Shown here one piece after another: positions 17,130 to 25,686 of a stretch of DNA of 64,000 nt. The translations under genes and the position numbers were made by a program. Origin of the DNA: Bacteroidales bacterium (GTDB lineage: Bacteria > Bacteroidota > Bacteroidia > Bacteroidales > UBA932); assembly GCA_017513445.1 (NCBI GenBank), contig JAFXFS010000003.1:1-64000 (forward strand), in the 5' to 3' direction. Every line of letters starts with the position of its first letter. Within the stretch, counting starts at the first letter, position 1. The notes under the pieces were generated by a model. That model ran no database searches and had not been told where the DNA came from. It saw nothing but the letters and a program-made list of their open reading frames with translations.

Positions 17130-17260
17130 TTAATTATTAGAAGAATCGAACAATTTTACAAAATAAATAGACTTATATAGAGATAAATTAAACCTTTTCG
17201 ATTTACAATAGTCAAAAGACTGAAAGTAATTTTTCGATTAGGCAAAAGTATATTATTTTG

Positions 17261-17299
17261 AAGAGGGCTGCTGTGAAGTAACCCTCTTTTTTCTTTTTA
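17261..17299 (+). terminator. Terminator downstream of the porin gene
   Basis: AAGAGGG (17261-17267) pairs with CCCTCTT (17282-17288), followed by TTTTTCTTTTTAT on the plus strand. The 130 nt between the porin stop and this hairpin hold nothing recognisable. Confidence 0.75.
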
Positions 17300-19608: not shown

Positions 19609-21246
19609 CTAAACCAAAATATTTGCCTTTTCAGGATATAAATATCTGATAATACTCTTTTTAGGAGTCTTGATAAATTCATCCACGCAAATTTTAATAG
19701 AAGAAACCTTCTCGTATGGGGCTACAACGGAGTTAAGTTTAAGTAGATTACTATTCATAATCTCTCTAATATTATCGGTAGATAATTTGTTGCGTCTAGC
19801 CTCATCATAGTCTGGAACAACAAGAGCAATAATGCGTCCATTCTCCTCATAAACAAGACTTTCTGAAACCAAATCCAAAGCATTCAACTTATATTCAATC
19901 TCTTCTGGATAGATATTTTGGCCATTTCCGAGCAAAATCATACTCTTTGATCTGCCTCTTAGTGATATAACTCCATCTGGCGAGATAACTCCGATGTCTC
20001 CGGTATGTAACCAACCTTCAGAGTCGATGCTTTCTGCAGTTGCCTTAGGATTTTTATAGTAGCCCTTCATTACGTGTGGCCCTCTGACTAAAATTTCGTT
20101 TTGTTCTCCATTCTTAACCTCCATACCAGGCAATATTTTTCCACAAGATCCCGGAACATAGTCATCGTGACGTGAGTAACTGATCAATGGGGCGCACTCT
20201 GTCATACCATAACCAACTGTAAATGGGAATTTTATCTTAAACAGAAACTTTTCAACCTCAGGACTTACAGCTGCTCCCCCCATATTCATCTCTGTCATTC
20301 TTCCTCCAAAAGATTCTAACATTGTTTTTCGTATTTTTCTGAAAATCAATTTATTAACAAGAGGAATTTTGGAAAGTAACTTTAGTGGTTGCTTCTCTAA
20401 CTTAGGGAAGACATTCTTCTTTACAACCTTTTCAATCACTAAAGGAACTGTGCAGATTAGGTCAGGTTTAGTCTCCTTCATCGCTTCGATAAGGATTTTA
20501 GGAGCAGGGATTTTGCCGAGCAGGTAAATGTGTGAACCTGCCGCCAACGGTGTAAGCATATCAAAAGCACATCCGTAAGCGTGGGCAAGGGGGAGCAGTG
20601 CAAGAACAGTTGATTTATGATAATGGAATTTATGCTCCAAAGCAAAAACGACATTGGCTGTGATATTTCTTACAGTAAGCATTACACCTTTGCTGAAACC
20701 ACTTGTGCCTGAAGTATAACTTATTACAATGACATCATCATCATCAAGAGATGCATAATTAACCTTCTGGATATCAAATGAAGGATATTCAATGTTTTCT
20801 ATCTTTTCAGTAAGAACGCCTTCACTCTTATCATAAAGAATCTCTCTGTTCTGAAGGTTAAAGGCAATTTTTACTCTCTCAAGAGAATCTTGTGGCAGTT
20901 TTCTCCAAATTTCCTCTCCAATAAATAGCAATTCTGCATCACTATGATTAATGATATTTATAGTATCTGCCGGATTGAAGTCTGAAAGAATAGGCACTAT
21001 TACTGCTCCATAAGTGATAACACCTATATAGCAAATAACCCATTTTGTGTCATTTTTGCCAGTAAGTGCAACTTTATCTCCCTTCTTTACGTTACAACAC
21101 TTCAAAAGAGTGTGAAACTTCTCAATTTCCTCAGCTAATTGATAATAAGTATAGCTTTTTTTTGAAAAATAATCGGTGAGAGCGCTATCATTATGGTAAT
21201 TTTTAAAGCTCTCTTCGTAAAGTTTAACAATATTTTTATTTTCCAT
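19609..21246 (-). CDS. Long-chain acyl-CoA synthetase / AMP-binding ligase
   Basis: 545 residues, ANL superfamily. The ATP-binding P-loop is YTSGTSGFSKG (177-187), with VGYGMTECAP near 343 and GWLHTGDIG near 400 (the conserved Asp of motif A7), then GNGQNIYPEEIE with the C-terminal lysine KTPKKS near 527. It activates a carboxylic acid to an acyl adenylate and usually transfers it to CoA. Long-chain fatty acids are the likely substrate. The SGNH hydrolase gene is 5 nt upstream on the same strand, suggesting that acid released from an ester is re-activated (inference). Confidence 0.88.
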   Translation of the reverse strand: MENKNIVKLYEESFKNYHNDSALTDYFSKKSYTYYQLAEEIEKFHTLLKCCNVKKGDKVALTGKNDTKWVICYIGVITYGAVIVPILSDFNPADTINIINHSDAELLFIGEEIWRKLPQDSLERVKIAFNLQNREILYDKSEGVLTEKIENIEYPSFDIQKVNYASLDDDDVIVISYTSGTSGFSKGVMLTVRNITANVVFALEHKFHYHKSTVLALLPLAHAYGCAFDMLTPLAAGSHIYLLGKIPAPKILIEAMKETKPDLICTVPLVIEKVVKKNVFPKLEKQPLKLLSKIPLVNKLIFRKIRKTMLESFGGRMTEMNMGGAAVSPEVEKFLFKIKFPFTVGYGMTECAPLISYSRHDDYVPGSCGKILPGMEVKNGEQNEILVRGPHVMKGYYKNPKATAESIDSEGWLHTGDIGVISPDGVISLRGRSKSMILLGNGQNIYPEEIEYKLNALDLVSESLVYEENGRIIALVVPDYDEARRNKLSTDNIREIMNSNLLKLNSVVAPYEKVSSIKICVDEFIKTPKKSIIRYLYPEKANILV

Positions 21247-21251
21247 ATCTA

Positions 21252-21953
21252 TTAATTTTTTTCGAAATAGTCACATAATATCTCGCCAATGAGTTTCTGC
21301 CCCTTGTCATTAGGGTGTATGCCATCCATACAGATGTAGTCAAACAAATCCACTTTTTGAAGGAAAGAGGTAGTAATATCAATTATGGGAATTTGCTCGT
21401 TCATTGCTATTTTGAAAAGCTCCAAATTGTAACTCTGATGCCAATTTGAGATTCTCTGTTTGTTGCCACCAAGCCAATTCAGGATGCGGTTCCTCTCATC
21501 TCCGCTCAAATCTTTAGAGAAGTAGTCAAAGTATCTCTCTGCACAAAGTGGTGGGAGAGATAGCAGAAGCGGTTTTGTCCCCATAGACTTGATCTTTTCA
21601 ATCACCTCGCAGTATCTTCTTACAAACTCCTTTAATGATGTTTTAGGATTGTGTTCACTTGTGGGATTATTTGCAATCTCTGCCCAATGGAAGTCACAAT
21701 CATTGCCACCATATTCCAAAAGGGCATAATCAGCATCTTGAATCTTGTCAAGGTTTCTATCTATAACTTTAGCACCATTCTCAATAGTGCTGCCAAATTT
21801 TCCATAATTTACCACTTCGAAGCCCAATCTTCTCTCAACTTCATTTGAGAAGTTGCTCTCTGAAACGGTATATTTTGTCTCCTTCTGGTTTTGTGATTTT
21901 TTCATCACCACACCCTTCATAATGGAGTCTCCGAATGCAATAACTTTTGTCAT
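21252..21953 (-). CDS. SGNH/GDSL hydrolase, cytoplasmic type
   Basis: 233 residues, no signal peptide. SGNH blocks are present: FGDSIMKG (block I, Ser near 9), GKFGST (block II region, near 55), LEYGGNDCD (block III, near 90) and DGIHPND (block V, Asp and His near 207-210). It resembles lysophospholipase/arylesterase-like esterases. Located 5 nt upstream of the acyl-CoA ligase gene, so the two are probably one operon releasing and activating acyl groups. The gene diverges from the LytTR regulator, sharing the 178-bp region that holds the TGTGAYNAAA repeats. Confidence 0.85.
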   Translation of the reverse strand: MTKVIAFGDSIMKGVVMKKSQNQKETKYTVSESNFSNEVERRLGFEVVNYGKFGSTIENGAKVIDRNLDKIQDADYALLEYGGNDCDFHWAEIANNPTSEHNPKTSLKEFVRRYCEVIEKIKSMGTKPLLLSLPPLCAERYFDYFSKDLSGDERNRILNWLGGNKQRISNWHQSYNLELFKIAMNEQIPIIDITTSFLQKVDLFDYICMDGIHPNDKGQKLIGEILCDYFEKN

Positions 21954-21972: not shown

Positions 21973-21980
21973 CAAAATTA
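21973..21980 (-). promoter_or_regulatory. -7 box of the SGNH hydrolase/acyl-CoA ligase pair
   Basis: On the minus strand TAATTTTG, 19 nt before the ATG at 21953. One TGTGACGAAA element (21995-22004) would cover its -33 region. Confidence 0.5.
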
Positions 21981-21994
21981 TTGACTCTCTACTC

Positions 21995-22121
21995 TGTGAC
22001 GAAAAAAATGTTATTTATGGCGATTCAATGTGACTAAAGTTGCTTTTTTGTGATAAAAACCCTAAATTTGTGACTAAAATATGCAAATAATTAATTTCGT
22101 CACAGCCAATATGTGACAAAA
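21995..22121. promoter_or_regulatory. Six TGTGAYNAAA elements in a divergent control region
   Basis: Plus-strand copies start at 21995 (TGTGACGAAA), 22029 (TGTGACTAAA), 22049 (TGTGATAAAA), 22069 (TGTGACTAAA) and 22112 (TGTGACAAAA). A reverse copy occupies 22095-22104 (TTTCGTCACA). The three at 22029, 22049 and 22069 are exactly 20 bp apart. The last two form an inverted pair around a 7-bp spacer. They overlap the predicted promoters of both divergent genes, so a shared, possibly autoregulatory, binding protein is likely. Confidence 0.7.
22040..22070 (+). promoter_or_regulatory. Promoter of the LytTR regulator gene
   Basis: TTG (22040-22042), a 20-nt spacer and TAAATTTG (22063-22070). Two TGTGAYNAAA elements overlap or lie inside it and one lies just upstream. 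Confidence 0.6.
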
Positions 22122-22131
22122 AATTTTAAAA

Positions 22132-22932
22132 ATGAGAGAATTACCACCGATTTTTAGGAGAGCTTCAATACAGGTTTTACACGCTATTTTGATGCCTGTT
22201 TTTTTTATCCTTTTTGTACTTCTATATAAGCCATTCAATATAGTTGAGGTCTTGGATATGGGGAGGGAACTCTACCCATTCAACATAACAATGATCACCT
22301 GTATTATTTTGGTATCTACCTCTCTTATGAGGTCTATTTTCTTTATCTTTAAAAAGAGCATTACAGTTAATTTACCCACATACATAATATATATAGTAGG
22401 AGAGATACTCTTTGCGTCATTCTTTGTGGCGTTATATATCTGGTTAATGGAGGGACGAGAACACCACTACTTCTACAATGCATCTCAAGCTACGCTCTAT
22501 TTATACTCAATACTGGTATATCCATATTCAGCATTGACAATCTTCCTTTATAATTCATATAAAGTAACAAGCGTCATCAAAAATGCTGAGAATAGAATCA
22601 GATTCTATGATAGCAATAATACATTGAAGTTTGTTGTTCACGCATCAGATATTCTCTATATAGAGGCAGAAGAGAACTATATTAGAATATTCTACGAAGA
22701 TATGGGAAAACTCAGCAACTATGTTATTCGTTCCTCTATGAAGAGTATTGAAGAGTTGTGTTTGAAGAATGGTCTTATTCGTTGCCATAGATCTTACTAT
22801 ATAAATGCTTCGCAGATTAAGTTGCTGATGAAGGATAAAAATGGAGTGACTGTGGCCGAATTTAATAATAGTGATGCGAAGCGGATTCCAGTTTCAAAGA
22901 TGTACTATGAGCAATTAACACAAATGTTGTAA
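22132..22932 (+). CDS. Membrane-anchored LytTR-type transcriptional regulator
   Basis: 266 residues. Four transmembrane helices are predicted by eye at about 20-37, 50-70, 83-107 and 123-145, followed by a LytTR DNA-binding domain (about 155-262; ILYIEAEENYIRIFY, then LIRCHRSYYINASQI). There is no response-regulator receiver domain, so it is not a classical two-component output. It may sense a membrane or periplasmic signal directly. LytTR proteins bind direct repeats about two helical turns apart, consistent with the 20-bp-spaced elements upstream of its own gene (inference). The His-rich protein and TonB receptor genes follow on the same strand. Confidence 0.87.
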   Translation: MRELPPIFRRASIQVLHAILMPVFFILFVLLYKPFNIVEVLDMGRELYPFNITMITCIILVSTSLMRSIFFIFKKSITVNLPTYIIYIVGEILFASFFVALYIWLMEGREHHYFYNASQATLYLYSILVYPYSALTIFLYNSYKVTSVIKNAENRIRFYDSNNTLKFVVHASDILYIEAEENYIRIFYEDMGKLSNYVIRSSMKSIEELCLKNGLIRCHRSYYINASQIKLLMKDKNGVTVAEFNNSDAKRIPVSKMYYEQLTQML

Positions 22933-22996: not shown

Positions 22997-23347
22997 GTGA
23001 ATTTTAGAGTAATAAATAGATATAAGGTTTCATTAACAACCTTTATGCTGATATTGTTCCTATCTCTTTGGAGCAGTTCACATATGTTTTATCATACGCA
23101 TATTGTTGATAATCAGACTGTTACTCACTCTCACCCTTATTCAAAATCCGAACACACACACAGTAGTGCAGAGTTTCAATTGATAACAATGACCTCTCTA
23201 CACTTAGCACTCTTGGCTGTTGTTTGTTTGCTTCTGAATCTTATAAAATTTGCAAGGCAACAACAATTCTTTATCAAGAGTGATAATGTTGTTTCATTGT
23301 TTAAAGGAGCTCTGTTGTCATTAAGAGCGCCTCCTGTTTCTTGTTAG
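22997..23347 (+). CDS. Small His-rich membrane protein upstream of a TonB receptor
   Basis: 116 residues from GTG. An ATG at 23045 would give 100 residues. One hydrophobic segment (about 13-30) is followed by an external-looking loop with HTHIVDN, HSHPYSKSEHTH (about 33-56), and a second hydrophobic segment (about 66-86). I do not recognise a named family, but small HTH/HSHP proteins preceding TonB receptors are seen in Bacteroidales. The clustered histidines suggest transition-metal binding, perhaps as a periplasmic sensor or acceptor for the neighbouring receptor. The gene is 64 nt after the LytTR regulator and 62 nt before the receptor, so all three may be co-transcribed. Confidence 0.7.
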   Translation: MNFRVINRYKVSLTTFMLILFLSLWSSSHMFYHTHIVDNQTVTHSHPYSKSEHTHSSAEFQLITMTSLHLALLAVVCLLLNLIKFARQQQFFIKSDNVVSLFKGALLSLRAPPVSC

Positions 23348-23409
23348 CTATCCGGAAACTCCTATGGAGTAAAAATTCACATTTATTAACTTAACAAACA
23401 AGATTCGCA

Positions 23410-25686
23410 ATGATTAAAAAAATTTTTGCGGTAATGTTATCATTTATGGTAACATCGTCGCTCTATGCGCAAATTAATGACGCAACAATTACAGGACATA
23501 TAATAGATAAAAATAGTGGAGAACATATACCATTCGTAACTATAATTCTTAATAATGGTGAGGCCTACACTACAAGTGATGAAACAGGCCACTATATGAT
23601 CTCTAATTTGCCAGTTGGAAAACATACTCTCAAGGCTACGCTTATGGGATATAAAGAGGATATACAGATTGTAAATATCTCAAAAGCAAACACTTATGTA
23701 GTACACTTCTCTTTGGATCCAGATGAGCAAATGTTAGAAGAGGTGGTGGTAACAGGAAATAGATATGTTACAAAAAAGAGAGAAACAGGTAATATTGTAA
23801 ACATCATTTCTCCAAAGAAGTTTGAGACTACGGCATCTGTAACTCCGGCAGAAATCCTCAACTTCCAACCAGGATTGAGAGTTGAGTATGATTGTGGAAA
23901 CTGTGGTGTTCCTCAGTTAAGAATTAATGGATTATCAGGTCAATATTCTCAAGTTCTTCTTGATAGTAGGGCAATTTTCAGCTCTTTAGGAATGGTGTAT
24001 GGACTTGAACAACTGCCTTCTTCAATGATAGAGAGGGTAGAAGTGGTTAGAGGTGGAGGTTCTGCGCTATTTGGATCAAATGCAATAGGTGGAACAGTAA
24101 ATATTATAACAAAGGAACCAACTTCTTCTCTGTTACAACTTTCAAATCAAACCGGACTTATTGGAGGCGAATCTCTTGATGCAAACACATCATTGAATGG
24201 TTCTTTCATCTCTGGTGATGGCAGAACAGGTGCTTATCTCTTTACAATGGTAAGGAGTCGCGATGGTTATGATCATAACGATGATGGCTTCACTGATATT
24301 CCTAAGCTCAGAAGTGAAACAATGGGAGTACGTGCTTTTCATAAAATTGCAGATAGACAGAAGCTAACTTTTGAGTATCATCATATCCACGAATTCAGAA
24401 GGGGAGGTGATAGTCTAAATATCCCTGCTCACGAGACAAATTTAGCAGAACAACTTGAGCATCAAATTAATGGTGGTGGTCTTACATACGATATAACATC
24501 AAAAAATGAGAAGAATTCAGGATCGGTTTACCTTTCAATGCAGCACATTGGCCGTAACTCATATTTCGGTACTGACAAGAATTTAGATGCTTATGGAAGA
24601 ACAACCGATTATACACTAAATAGTGGTATGCAATGGATCCACAACTTCAAAAATGGCTCATTCCCTGCAATTTTTACTGCAGGATTTGACTATACTATGG
24701 ATAAACTCCACGATGTTATGATTGGATATAACAGAGAGATTAATCAGAAGACACACGTTGGTGGATTGTATGCTCAGAATGAGTGGAAAAATAGTAAGTA
24801 TGGTATTCTTGTAGGACTACGTGCTGATAAACACTCGATGATTAAGAGTCCGATTTTATCTCCAAGAGTAACTTTGAGATATGCTCAGACAAAGGAGATT
24901 ACACTCAGAACTTCTTATGCAAGAGGATATCGTGCGCCTCAGGTTTATGATGAGGATTTGCACGTAGGTGCTGTAGGAGGCGAGGTCTCTTTAATACAGA
25001 TATCTCCTGATTTAATCCCAGAATATTCAAATAATGTAAATATATCTTTTGATTGGTGGAAACAGATAGGCGAGTGGCAAATTAACCTCTTAGTAGAGGC
25101 ATTCTATACAGATTTGGAGAATGTGTTCGCTTTGGTGGAGAAAGGGCACGATGATAAAGGCAATCTTCTTCTTGAGAGAGTAAATGAGGAGGGAGCTACT
25201 GTGGCTGGTGTAAATCTTGAATCAAGAGTCTCTTATGGTAAGAAATTGAGTATTCAAGGTGGATATACATTCCAAAAGAGCCGTTATAAAACTCCTTTCA
25301 TTTGGAGTGATGATGTTGCTCCTCAAAGTTCAATGTATAATACTCCTGATCACTATGGCTATTTGAACCTGGATTACTATCCTATGGAGAAAATGACTCT
25401 ATCTCTTAATGGGGTATTTACAGGATCTATGTTGTTCCAGCACTATGCAGGATATGTTGAGAAGGACTGCGAAAAAGTTACTCCAGCATTTGCAGATTTG
25501 GGAGCTCGAGTAGCATATAATATTGATCTTACCAAAAAAACACAAATGGAGCTCTTTATCTCTGTTAAAAATATTCTGAATCAATATCAAGACGACCTGG
25601 ATGTAGGAATGGATAAAGACTCTAAATATGTTTATGGCCCGGCAACTCCAAGGTCATTCTATTTCGGAGCAAAAGTTTTGTTTTAG
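23410..25686 (+). CDS. TonB-dependent outer-membrane receptor with Cys-x-x-Cys plug
   Basis: 758 residues. Signal peptide (about 1-21, SSLYAQ), carboxypeptidase-regulatory-like domain (about 24-105; ITGHIIDKNSGEHIPFVTI), TonB-box-like EEVVVTG, plug domain (about 115-235; QLRINGLSGQYSQVLLDSR, then GSALFGSNAIGGTVNI), and a 22-strand-type barrel ending with RSFYFGAKVLF. The plug contains DCGNCG, a Cys-x-x-Cys pair that could bind a metal or form a disulfide. It imports a bulky or scarce substrate with TonB energy. A metal complex or cofactor is the best guess given the His-rich neighbour. No SusD partner is present, arguing against glycans. Confidence 0.9.
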   Translation: MIKKIFAVMLSFMVTSSLYAQINDATITGHIIDKNSGEHIPFVTIILNNGEAYTTSDETGHYMISNLPVGKHTLKATLMGYKEDIQIVNISKANTYVVHFSLDPDEQMLEEVVVTGNRYVTKKRETGNIVNIISPKKFETTASVTPAEILNFQPGLRVEYDCGNCGVPQLRINGLSGQYSQVLLDSRAIFSSLGMVYGLEQLPSSMIERVEVVRGGGSALFGSNAIGGTVNIITKEPTSSLLQLSNQTGLIGGESLDANTSLNGSFISGDGRTGAYLFTMVRSRDGYDHNDDGFTDIPKLRSETMGVRAFHKIADRQKLTFEYHHIHEFRRGGDSLNIPAHETNLAEQLEHQINGGGLTYDITSKNEKNSGSVYLSMQHIGRNSYFGTDKNLDAYGRTTDYTLNSGMQWIHNFKNGSFPAIFTAGFDYTMDKLHDVMIGYNREINQKTHVGGLYAQNEWKNSKYGILVGLRADKHSMIKSPILSPRVTLRYAQTKEITLRTSYARGYRAPQVYDEDLHVGAVGGEVSLIQISPDLIPEYSNNVNISFDWWKQIGEWQINLLVEAFYTDLENVFALVEKGHDDKGNLLLERVNEEGATVAGVNLESRVSYGKKLSIQGGYTFQKSRYKTPFIWSDDVAPQSSMYNTPDHYGYLNLDYYPMEKMTLSLNGVFTGSMLFQHYAGYVEKDCEKVTPAFADLGARVAYNIDLTKKTQMELFISVKNILNQYQDDLDVGMDKDSKYVYGPATPRSFYFGAKVLF

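Follow-up and report, generated by a model that had tools for sequence, protein, structure and literature searches.

Background

The published consensus for LytTR binding sites is [TA][AC][CA]GTTN[AG][TG]. The agr promoters, which are controlled by the LytTR protein AgrA, diverge, and one of the agr outputs is a regulatory RNA. Canonical LytTR sites consist of 9-bp repeats with 10-13 bp spacing (PMC11347149). In the LRS-like operons of Bacteroides thetaiotaomicron and B. ovatus, one pair of TCCGG-type repeats, TCCGGTATTCA-11 bp-ACCGGAAATCA, has a 22-bp period, and the -7 box is TATCTTTG (PMC6193735). CoxC, experimentally a repressor, uses three direct repeats that overlap its promoter (PMC11347149). 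The sites of RcoM and of the LRS regulators also depart from the consensus (PMC6193735, PMC11347149), so the published consensus is no strict criterion for membership.

Membrane-anchored LytTR regulators with a known operator are few. Here we describe a cluster of TGTGAYNAAA elements beside a membrane LytTR gene in a 64-kb stretch of Bacteroidales DNA, from this point on referred to as the window. The cluster offers a case in which to study the recognition of tandem sites by a regulator bound to the membrane. No description of the motif was met in literature searches, which missed most subscription journals. The published LytTR consensus has no match within 21990-22130, and its matches across the window are at chance level.

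Probable operator copies and promoters

Six exact copies of TGTGAYNAAA, five direct and one inverted, with three at a 20-bp period, are found in the window sequence exactly where the sequence-only reading had placed them. The direct copies, all on the plus strand, are D1 (TGTGACGAAA, 21995..22004), D2 (TGTGACTAAA, 22029..22038), which opens the 20-bp-phased trio, D3 (TGTGATAAAA, 22049..22058), D4 (TGTGACTAAA, 22069..22078), which is the proximal direct copy and is overlapped by a TTTG at 22067-22070, and D5 (TGTGACAAAA, 22112..22121). The inverted copy, on the minus strand at 22095..22104 (TTTCGTCACA as read on the plus strand), overlaps a -7-like box; D5 follows it by 17 bp and probably falls in the 5' leader of the LytTR transcript.

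Only eight exact matches occur in the whole window, six of them inside 127 bp, against a shuffled mean of 2.6 per 64 kb. When one mismatch is allowed there is no window-wide enrichment (58 matches versus 59 expected), so the signal is a local cluster. Genome-wide (1.62 Mb, 99% complete), a mismatch-free 20-bp pair occurs at the operator locus only, and the remaining 20-bp pair matches each carry three mismatches. A wider regulon in this genome was considered and rejected, the other 20-bp pairs being near the control level (13 pairs in all versus 9 for the reversed pattern).

Two divergent promoters, some 150 bp from each other, flank the array. On the minus strand, sequence and relatives together point to TAATTTTG at 21973..21980 as the -7 box of the divergent SGNH gene. 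D1 lies about 14 bp upstream of this box, that is, over its -33 region, and most of the relatives listed have a divergent TAnnTTTG box some 150 bp before the LytTR ATG. For the LytTR gene, the sequence-only reading had settled on TAAATTTG at 22063..22070 on the plus strand (promoter A), a perfect TAnnTTTG. This box is present, but the place of a second candidate, TAATTTCG at 22092..22099 on the plus strand (promoter B, one mismatch to TAnnTTTG), is conserved at least as well in relatives. At the place of the promoter A box, which ends at the proximal direct copy, TAnnTTTG is perfect in 29 of 96 loci and within one mismatch in 59; at the place of the promoter B box, which overlaps the inverted copy, the corresponding counts are 53 and 69 of 96. 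Upstream of the promoter B box, the TTTG at 22067-22070 recurs at the same place in 82 of the 96 loci, overlapping the start of the proximal direct copy. With TAAATTTG perfect and TAATTTCG carrying one mismatch in the window, transcription may start from A or from B, and operator copies cover promoter elements in both cases.

Conservation of the array in homologues

Homologues were drawn from 149 relatives, 399 genomes of the same family and 80 loci of a GTDB contig set, the last being Bacteroidales MAGs mostly from ruminant or horse gut, one of them named Candidatus Cryptobacteroides caccocaballi. The regulator family is common in gut Bacteroidales, and the homologous proteins are 25-48% identical to that of the window. 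The array had been expected upstream of orthologous LytTR genes, and a check run on the orthologous loci found both the motif and the 20-bp phasing. With one member kept per 60% identity cluster and the window excluded (n=58), the upstream regions hold 128 motif matches with at most one mismatch, compared to 12.6 after shuffling and 2 in a coding control. Pairs at 20 bp occur in 19 of the 58 regions and in none across 30 shuffle rounds; with the relaxed motif TGKGRYNAAA the count rises to 30 of 58, versus 0.03 shuffled. A fresh set of 57 previously unseen loci contains the 20-bp pair in 25. Direct repeats of LytTR sites are about 19-22 bp apart, and the 20-bp period of the window and its orthologues falls in that range.

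The element is not confined to one species, as judged from the homologue upstream regions. Homologues throughout the family, and in parts of the order, share a degenerate consensus, [TA]G[TG]G[AG][CT]NAAA. At least two sites are present in 90 of 117 distinct homologues; the other 27 have fewer than two within 200 bp upstream, and the regulator family can thus do without the array. Geometry was measured on the 96 loci carrying both direct and inverted elements. The distance from the proximal direct to the inverted copy is 25 bp in 66 and 26 bp in 27 (93/96), and that from the inverted copy to the final direct copy before the ATG is mostly 17-18 bp, with a mode of 17.

The regulator and its probable contact with the motif

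The gene following the array (22132..22932, plus strand) encodes a membrane LytTR regulator of 266 aa, as characterized by Pfam, AlphaFold and Foldseek. Its LytTR DNA-binding domain scores 63 bits to PF04397, for which the cut-off is 22.6. An AlphaFold model built from 41 orthologues (mean pLDDT 92.7) has four long membrane-type helices, at about 11-32, 48-73, 81-106 and 113-153, followed by an all-beta C-terminal LytTR domain at 155-266. A Foldseek search with this domain places the LytTR domains of 3d6w, ComE and AgrA nearest among solved structures, complexes of AgrA with promoter DNA included. Pfam gives LytTR alone and the N-terminus is taken up by the four helices, leaving no receiver domain; the protein is thus not a two-component LytTR response regulator. 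The genome has two LytTR genes; the second encodes an ordinary response regulator and adjoins a histidine-kinase-like gene.

The strongest evidence that the LytTR domain binds the array is statistical and comes from the covariation of residue 181 with motif base 5. A scan on a tree of 134 homologues compared the motif with 1,023 residue splits drawn from the full length of the protein, and the top split was residue 181 versus base 5, with 13 parsimony changes. Asp at residue 181 is linked to a shift from A to G at base 5 (p = 1.7e-7 by independent contrasts). Expressed as means of loci, E181 loci have A at base 5 in 95% (near group) and 89% (far group) of their sites, compared to 69% and 29% in D181 loci. 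Residue 181 belongs to a loop that aligns to AgrA K167-H169, two residues before H169, although this alignment is weak (E about 0.06). H169 makes a base contact in AgrA, and the loop is the probable DNA-contact loop of the regulator. For motif base 3 the scan found no single residue that stood out; an association with acidic residue 161 (p = 3e-6) used a grouping picked after looking and is a lead only. On this comparative evidence, the adjacent LytTR protein very probably reads the array.

Genes on either side of the array

Across the array from the regulator lies an SGNH/GDSL hydrolase gene (21252..21953, minus strand, Pfam), followed 5 bp later, in tandem, by an acyl-AMP/acyl-CoA ligase gene (19609..21246, minus strand, Pfam AMP-binding). 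The window thus has both common partners together, and these two genes are a probable operon. Of 174 distinct loci, 29 have an acyl-AMP ligase as the divergent partner, 24 a small RNA that ends in a terminator, 20 an SGNH hydrolase and 19 a GT8 glycosyltransferase. A further 60 have some other ORF there, a group that takes in FabH, an acyltransferase and a condensation-domain protein as well as some that are probably not genes. With an SGNH hydrolase or acyl ligase across the array in 49 of 174 loci, the proposal that the array is common to the LytTR gene and the SGNH/acyl-ligase operon gains support.

The downstream side fared differently. That the array also governs uptake genes is not supported by orthologous loci, where the small His-rich protein and the TonB receptor have no counterparts, which removes them as conserved targets; these genes have a promoter-like TATTTTTG of their own just before 22997. 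The complex operator that had been proposed for a self-regulating membrane LytTR protein is therefore retained, being conserved in orthologous loci and autoregulatory by position, without the uptake genes. Downstream genes vary among relatives with no recurring partner, and in many a convergent gene follows the LytTR gene, which leaves autoregulation plus a divergent gene as the common theme. In the window, 22997-25686 encodes a small His-rich membrane-type protein and then the TonB receptor, whose similarity to heme, B12 and siderophore receptors is sub-threshold only; this is possibly a metal-related uptake pair, outside the LytTR operator.

In Cryptobacteroides-type relatives, the divergent side has a short terminator-ended RNA with the near-invariant sequence AAGTTAAAGTAC, as at L163:11943-11994(-), L202:5772-5823(-) and 23 more loci. 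Covariation in its hairpin is strong (95% of cells paired, 52 double changes), and 11 loci searched gave no Rfam match. A model of this RNA run on 51 sources yielded 25 matches outside the window, every one at a LytTR locus; over 300 genomes it gave one match at E<=1e-4, probably owing to the stricter filters of large searches. We regard it, from its sequence and position, as a candidate new small RNA under LytTR control. The best match in the window's own genome, at 17236-17291 (plus strand), is weak (30.6 bits, E 0.002), lies between convergent genes and may be merely a terminator with a similar loop.

Genomes of the Cryptobacteroides type hold further arrays, at genes for FabG, an AATase-type acyltransferase and AMP-ligases. 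A sister array, TGTGGC...TGTGGT at 20 bp, occurs at L193:4796, L195:1274, L196:4930 and near 5000 in L197, at FabG, AMP-ligase and neighbouring genes, and is probably read by a paralogous regulator. Separately, L182, L183, L184, L185, L186, L187, L191 and L192, also of this type, have a TGTGAC(G/C)AAA 20-bp pair after a AAAGAAAAA run, with several near-identical copies in one genome. Genes just downstream of some of these pairs presumably resemble Rpn/PD-(D/E)XK transposase-like proteins.

Mode of regulation and alternatives

We consider it likely, from the comparative evidence, that the membrane-anchored one-component regulator encoded next to the array uses it as its operator. LytTR domains would occupy the 20-bp-phased direct copies as neighbours on a single face of the DNA, much as AgrA or ComE do. 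Where copies overlie the -33 and -7 boxes, bound protein would block its own promoter or, slightly less likely, activate it, and through the distal copy over the divergent -33 region the same signal would reach the SGNH-acyl ligase operon. That signal, sensed by the four-helix domain, is probably membrane or lipid state, as suggested by the many acyl-chain enzymes among the partner genes across the array; these partners vary among loci, which counts against a firm lipid-signal reading. As to sign, autorepression that is relieved on signal is slightly more likely than activation.

The alternative that survives best, a real if less than even possibility, is that the LytTR protein reads the array as an activator of itself and of the divergent gene, in a positive feedback like that of LRS systems. 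Direct repeats upstream of -35, with proposed autoactivation, are found in LRS operons (PMC6193735). Distant homologues, such as L088-L091, have direct copies only, just upstream of the -7 box, a layout that would suit an activator too. Set against this, the window and its close relatives have copies on the -7 box and in the leader as well, and CoxC, a membrane LytTR protein with its operator over -35, is a repressor (PMC11347149).

TGTGA and TCACA are the half-sites of CRP-type proteins. The TGTGA cores of the array, together with the homologues that lack it, could be taken to mean that the array is read by another transcription factor, for example of the CRP/FNR type, through which the LytTR gene is controlled. 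We find this improbable. The inverted pair is oriented wrongly (TCACA-N7-TGTGA), and the palindrome TGTGA-N6-TCACA has no match in the operator even when one mismatch is allowed. Moreover, 20-bp direct repeats are LytTR-like, the array follows the LytTR gene amid unrelated flanks, and changes in the motif go together with changes in the LytTR contact loop.

It is very unlikely that the inverted pair at 22095-22121 acts as an RNA hairpin or terminator instead of as DNA sites. A 10-pair stem is predicted, with a terminator-like flag on the minus strand, but its arms are simply two motif copies, no more than three of its pairs are G-C, and the 5' arm shares bases with the -7 box and would hence be untranscribed from promoter B. 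A chance cluster, for which the AT-rich composition of the intergenic DNA could speak, is excluded for practical purposes by local clustering, uniqueness in the genome, conservation in orthologues relative to shuffles and the fixed spacings, all of which indicate that the array is functional DNA.

More broadly, the prospect is only just short of even that these proteins make up a broad family of membrane LytTR regulators in Bacteroidales, four-helix in build and so far undescribed. Its members would sense the state of acyl lipids or of the envelope and would have a readable protein-DNA specificity code (residue 181 for base 5, perhaps 161 for base 3). Their operator would be two-sided, with acyl enzymes, a glycosyltransferase and a small RNA replacing one another as the second output. 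Sequence alone here yields an operator, its fixed geometry, a probable reader and a predicted specificity residue, and hints at a possible acyl-lipid response where lipid regulation is little known.

Comparison with known systems

Like HdrRM and BrsRM (LRS), the locus would be an autoregulatory LytTR operon with direct repeats, although those systems pair a soluble regulator with a separate inhibitory membrane protein (PMC6193735). Here the membrane part is fused to the LytTR domain and no recurring downstream partner is found, which places the system outside the LRS definition. AgrA at agr P2-P3 of Staphylococcus aureus offers LytTR sites between two promoters (PMC4227749), and the regulatory-RNA output of agr resembles the divergent small RNA of the Cryptobacteroides relatives; AgrA differs in being a soluble response regulator with another motif and no inverted copy over a promoter.

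The LRS-like operons of B. thetaiotaomicron and B. ovatus share with the window a membrane-spanning LytTR protein and direct repeats upstream of its own promoter. Their separate NfeD/DUF2154 membrane partner has no adjacent equivalent in the window, and the array differs in its TGTGAYNAAA motif, its 20-bp period and its five direct and one inverted copies. CoxC of Afipia carboxidovorans is likewise a membrane sensor fused to a LytTR domain, but it is alphaproteobacterial, senses CO through a seven-helix MHYT domain and uses TTNNNGCN repeats (PMC11347149). Thus, motif, geometry and targets of the present system differ from those of the LRS-like regulators and CoxC, which are its closest known relatives in design.
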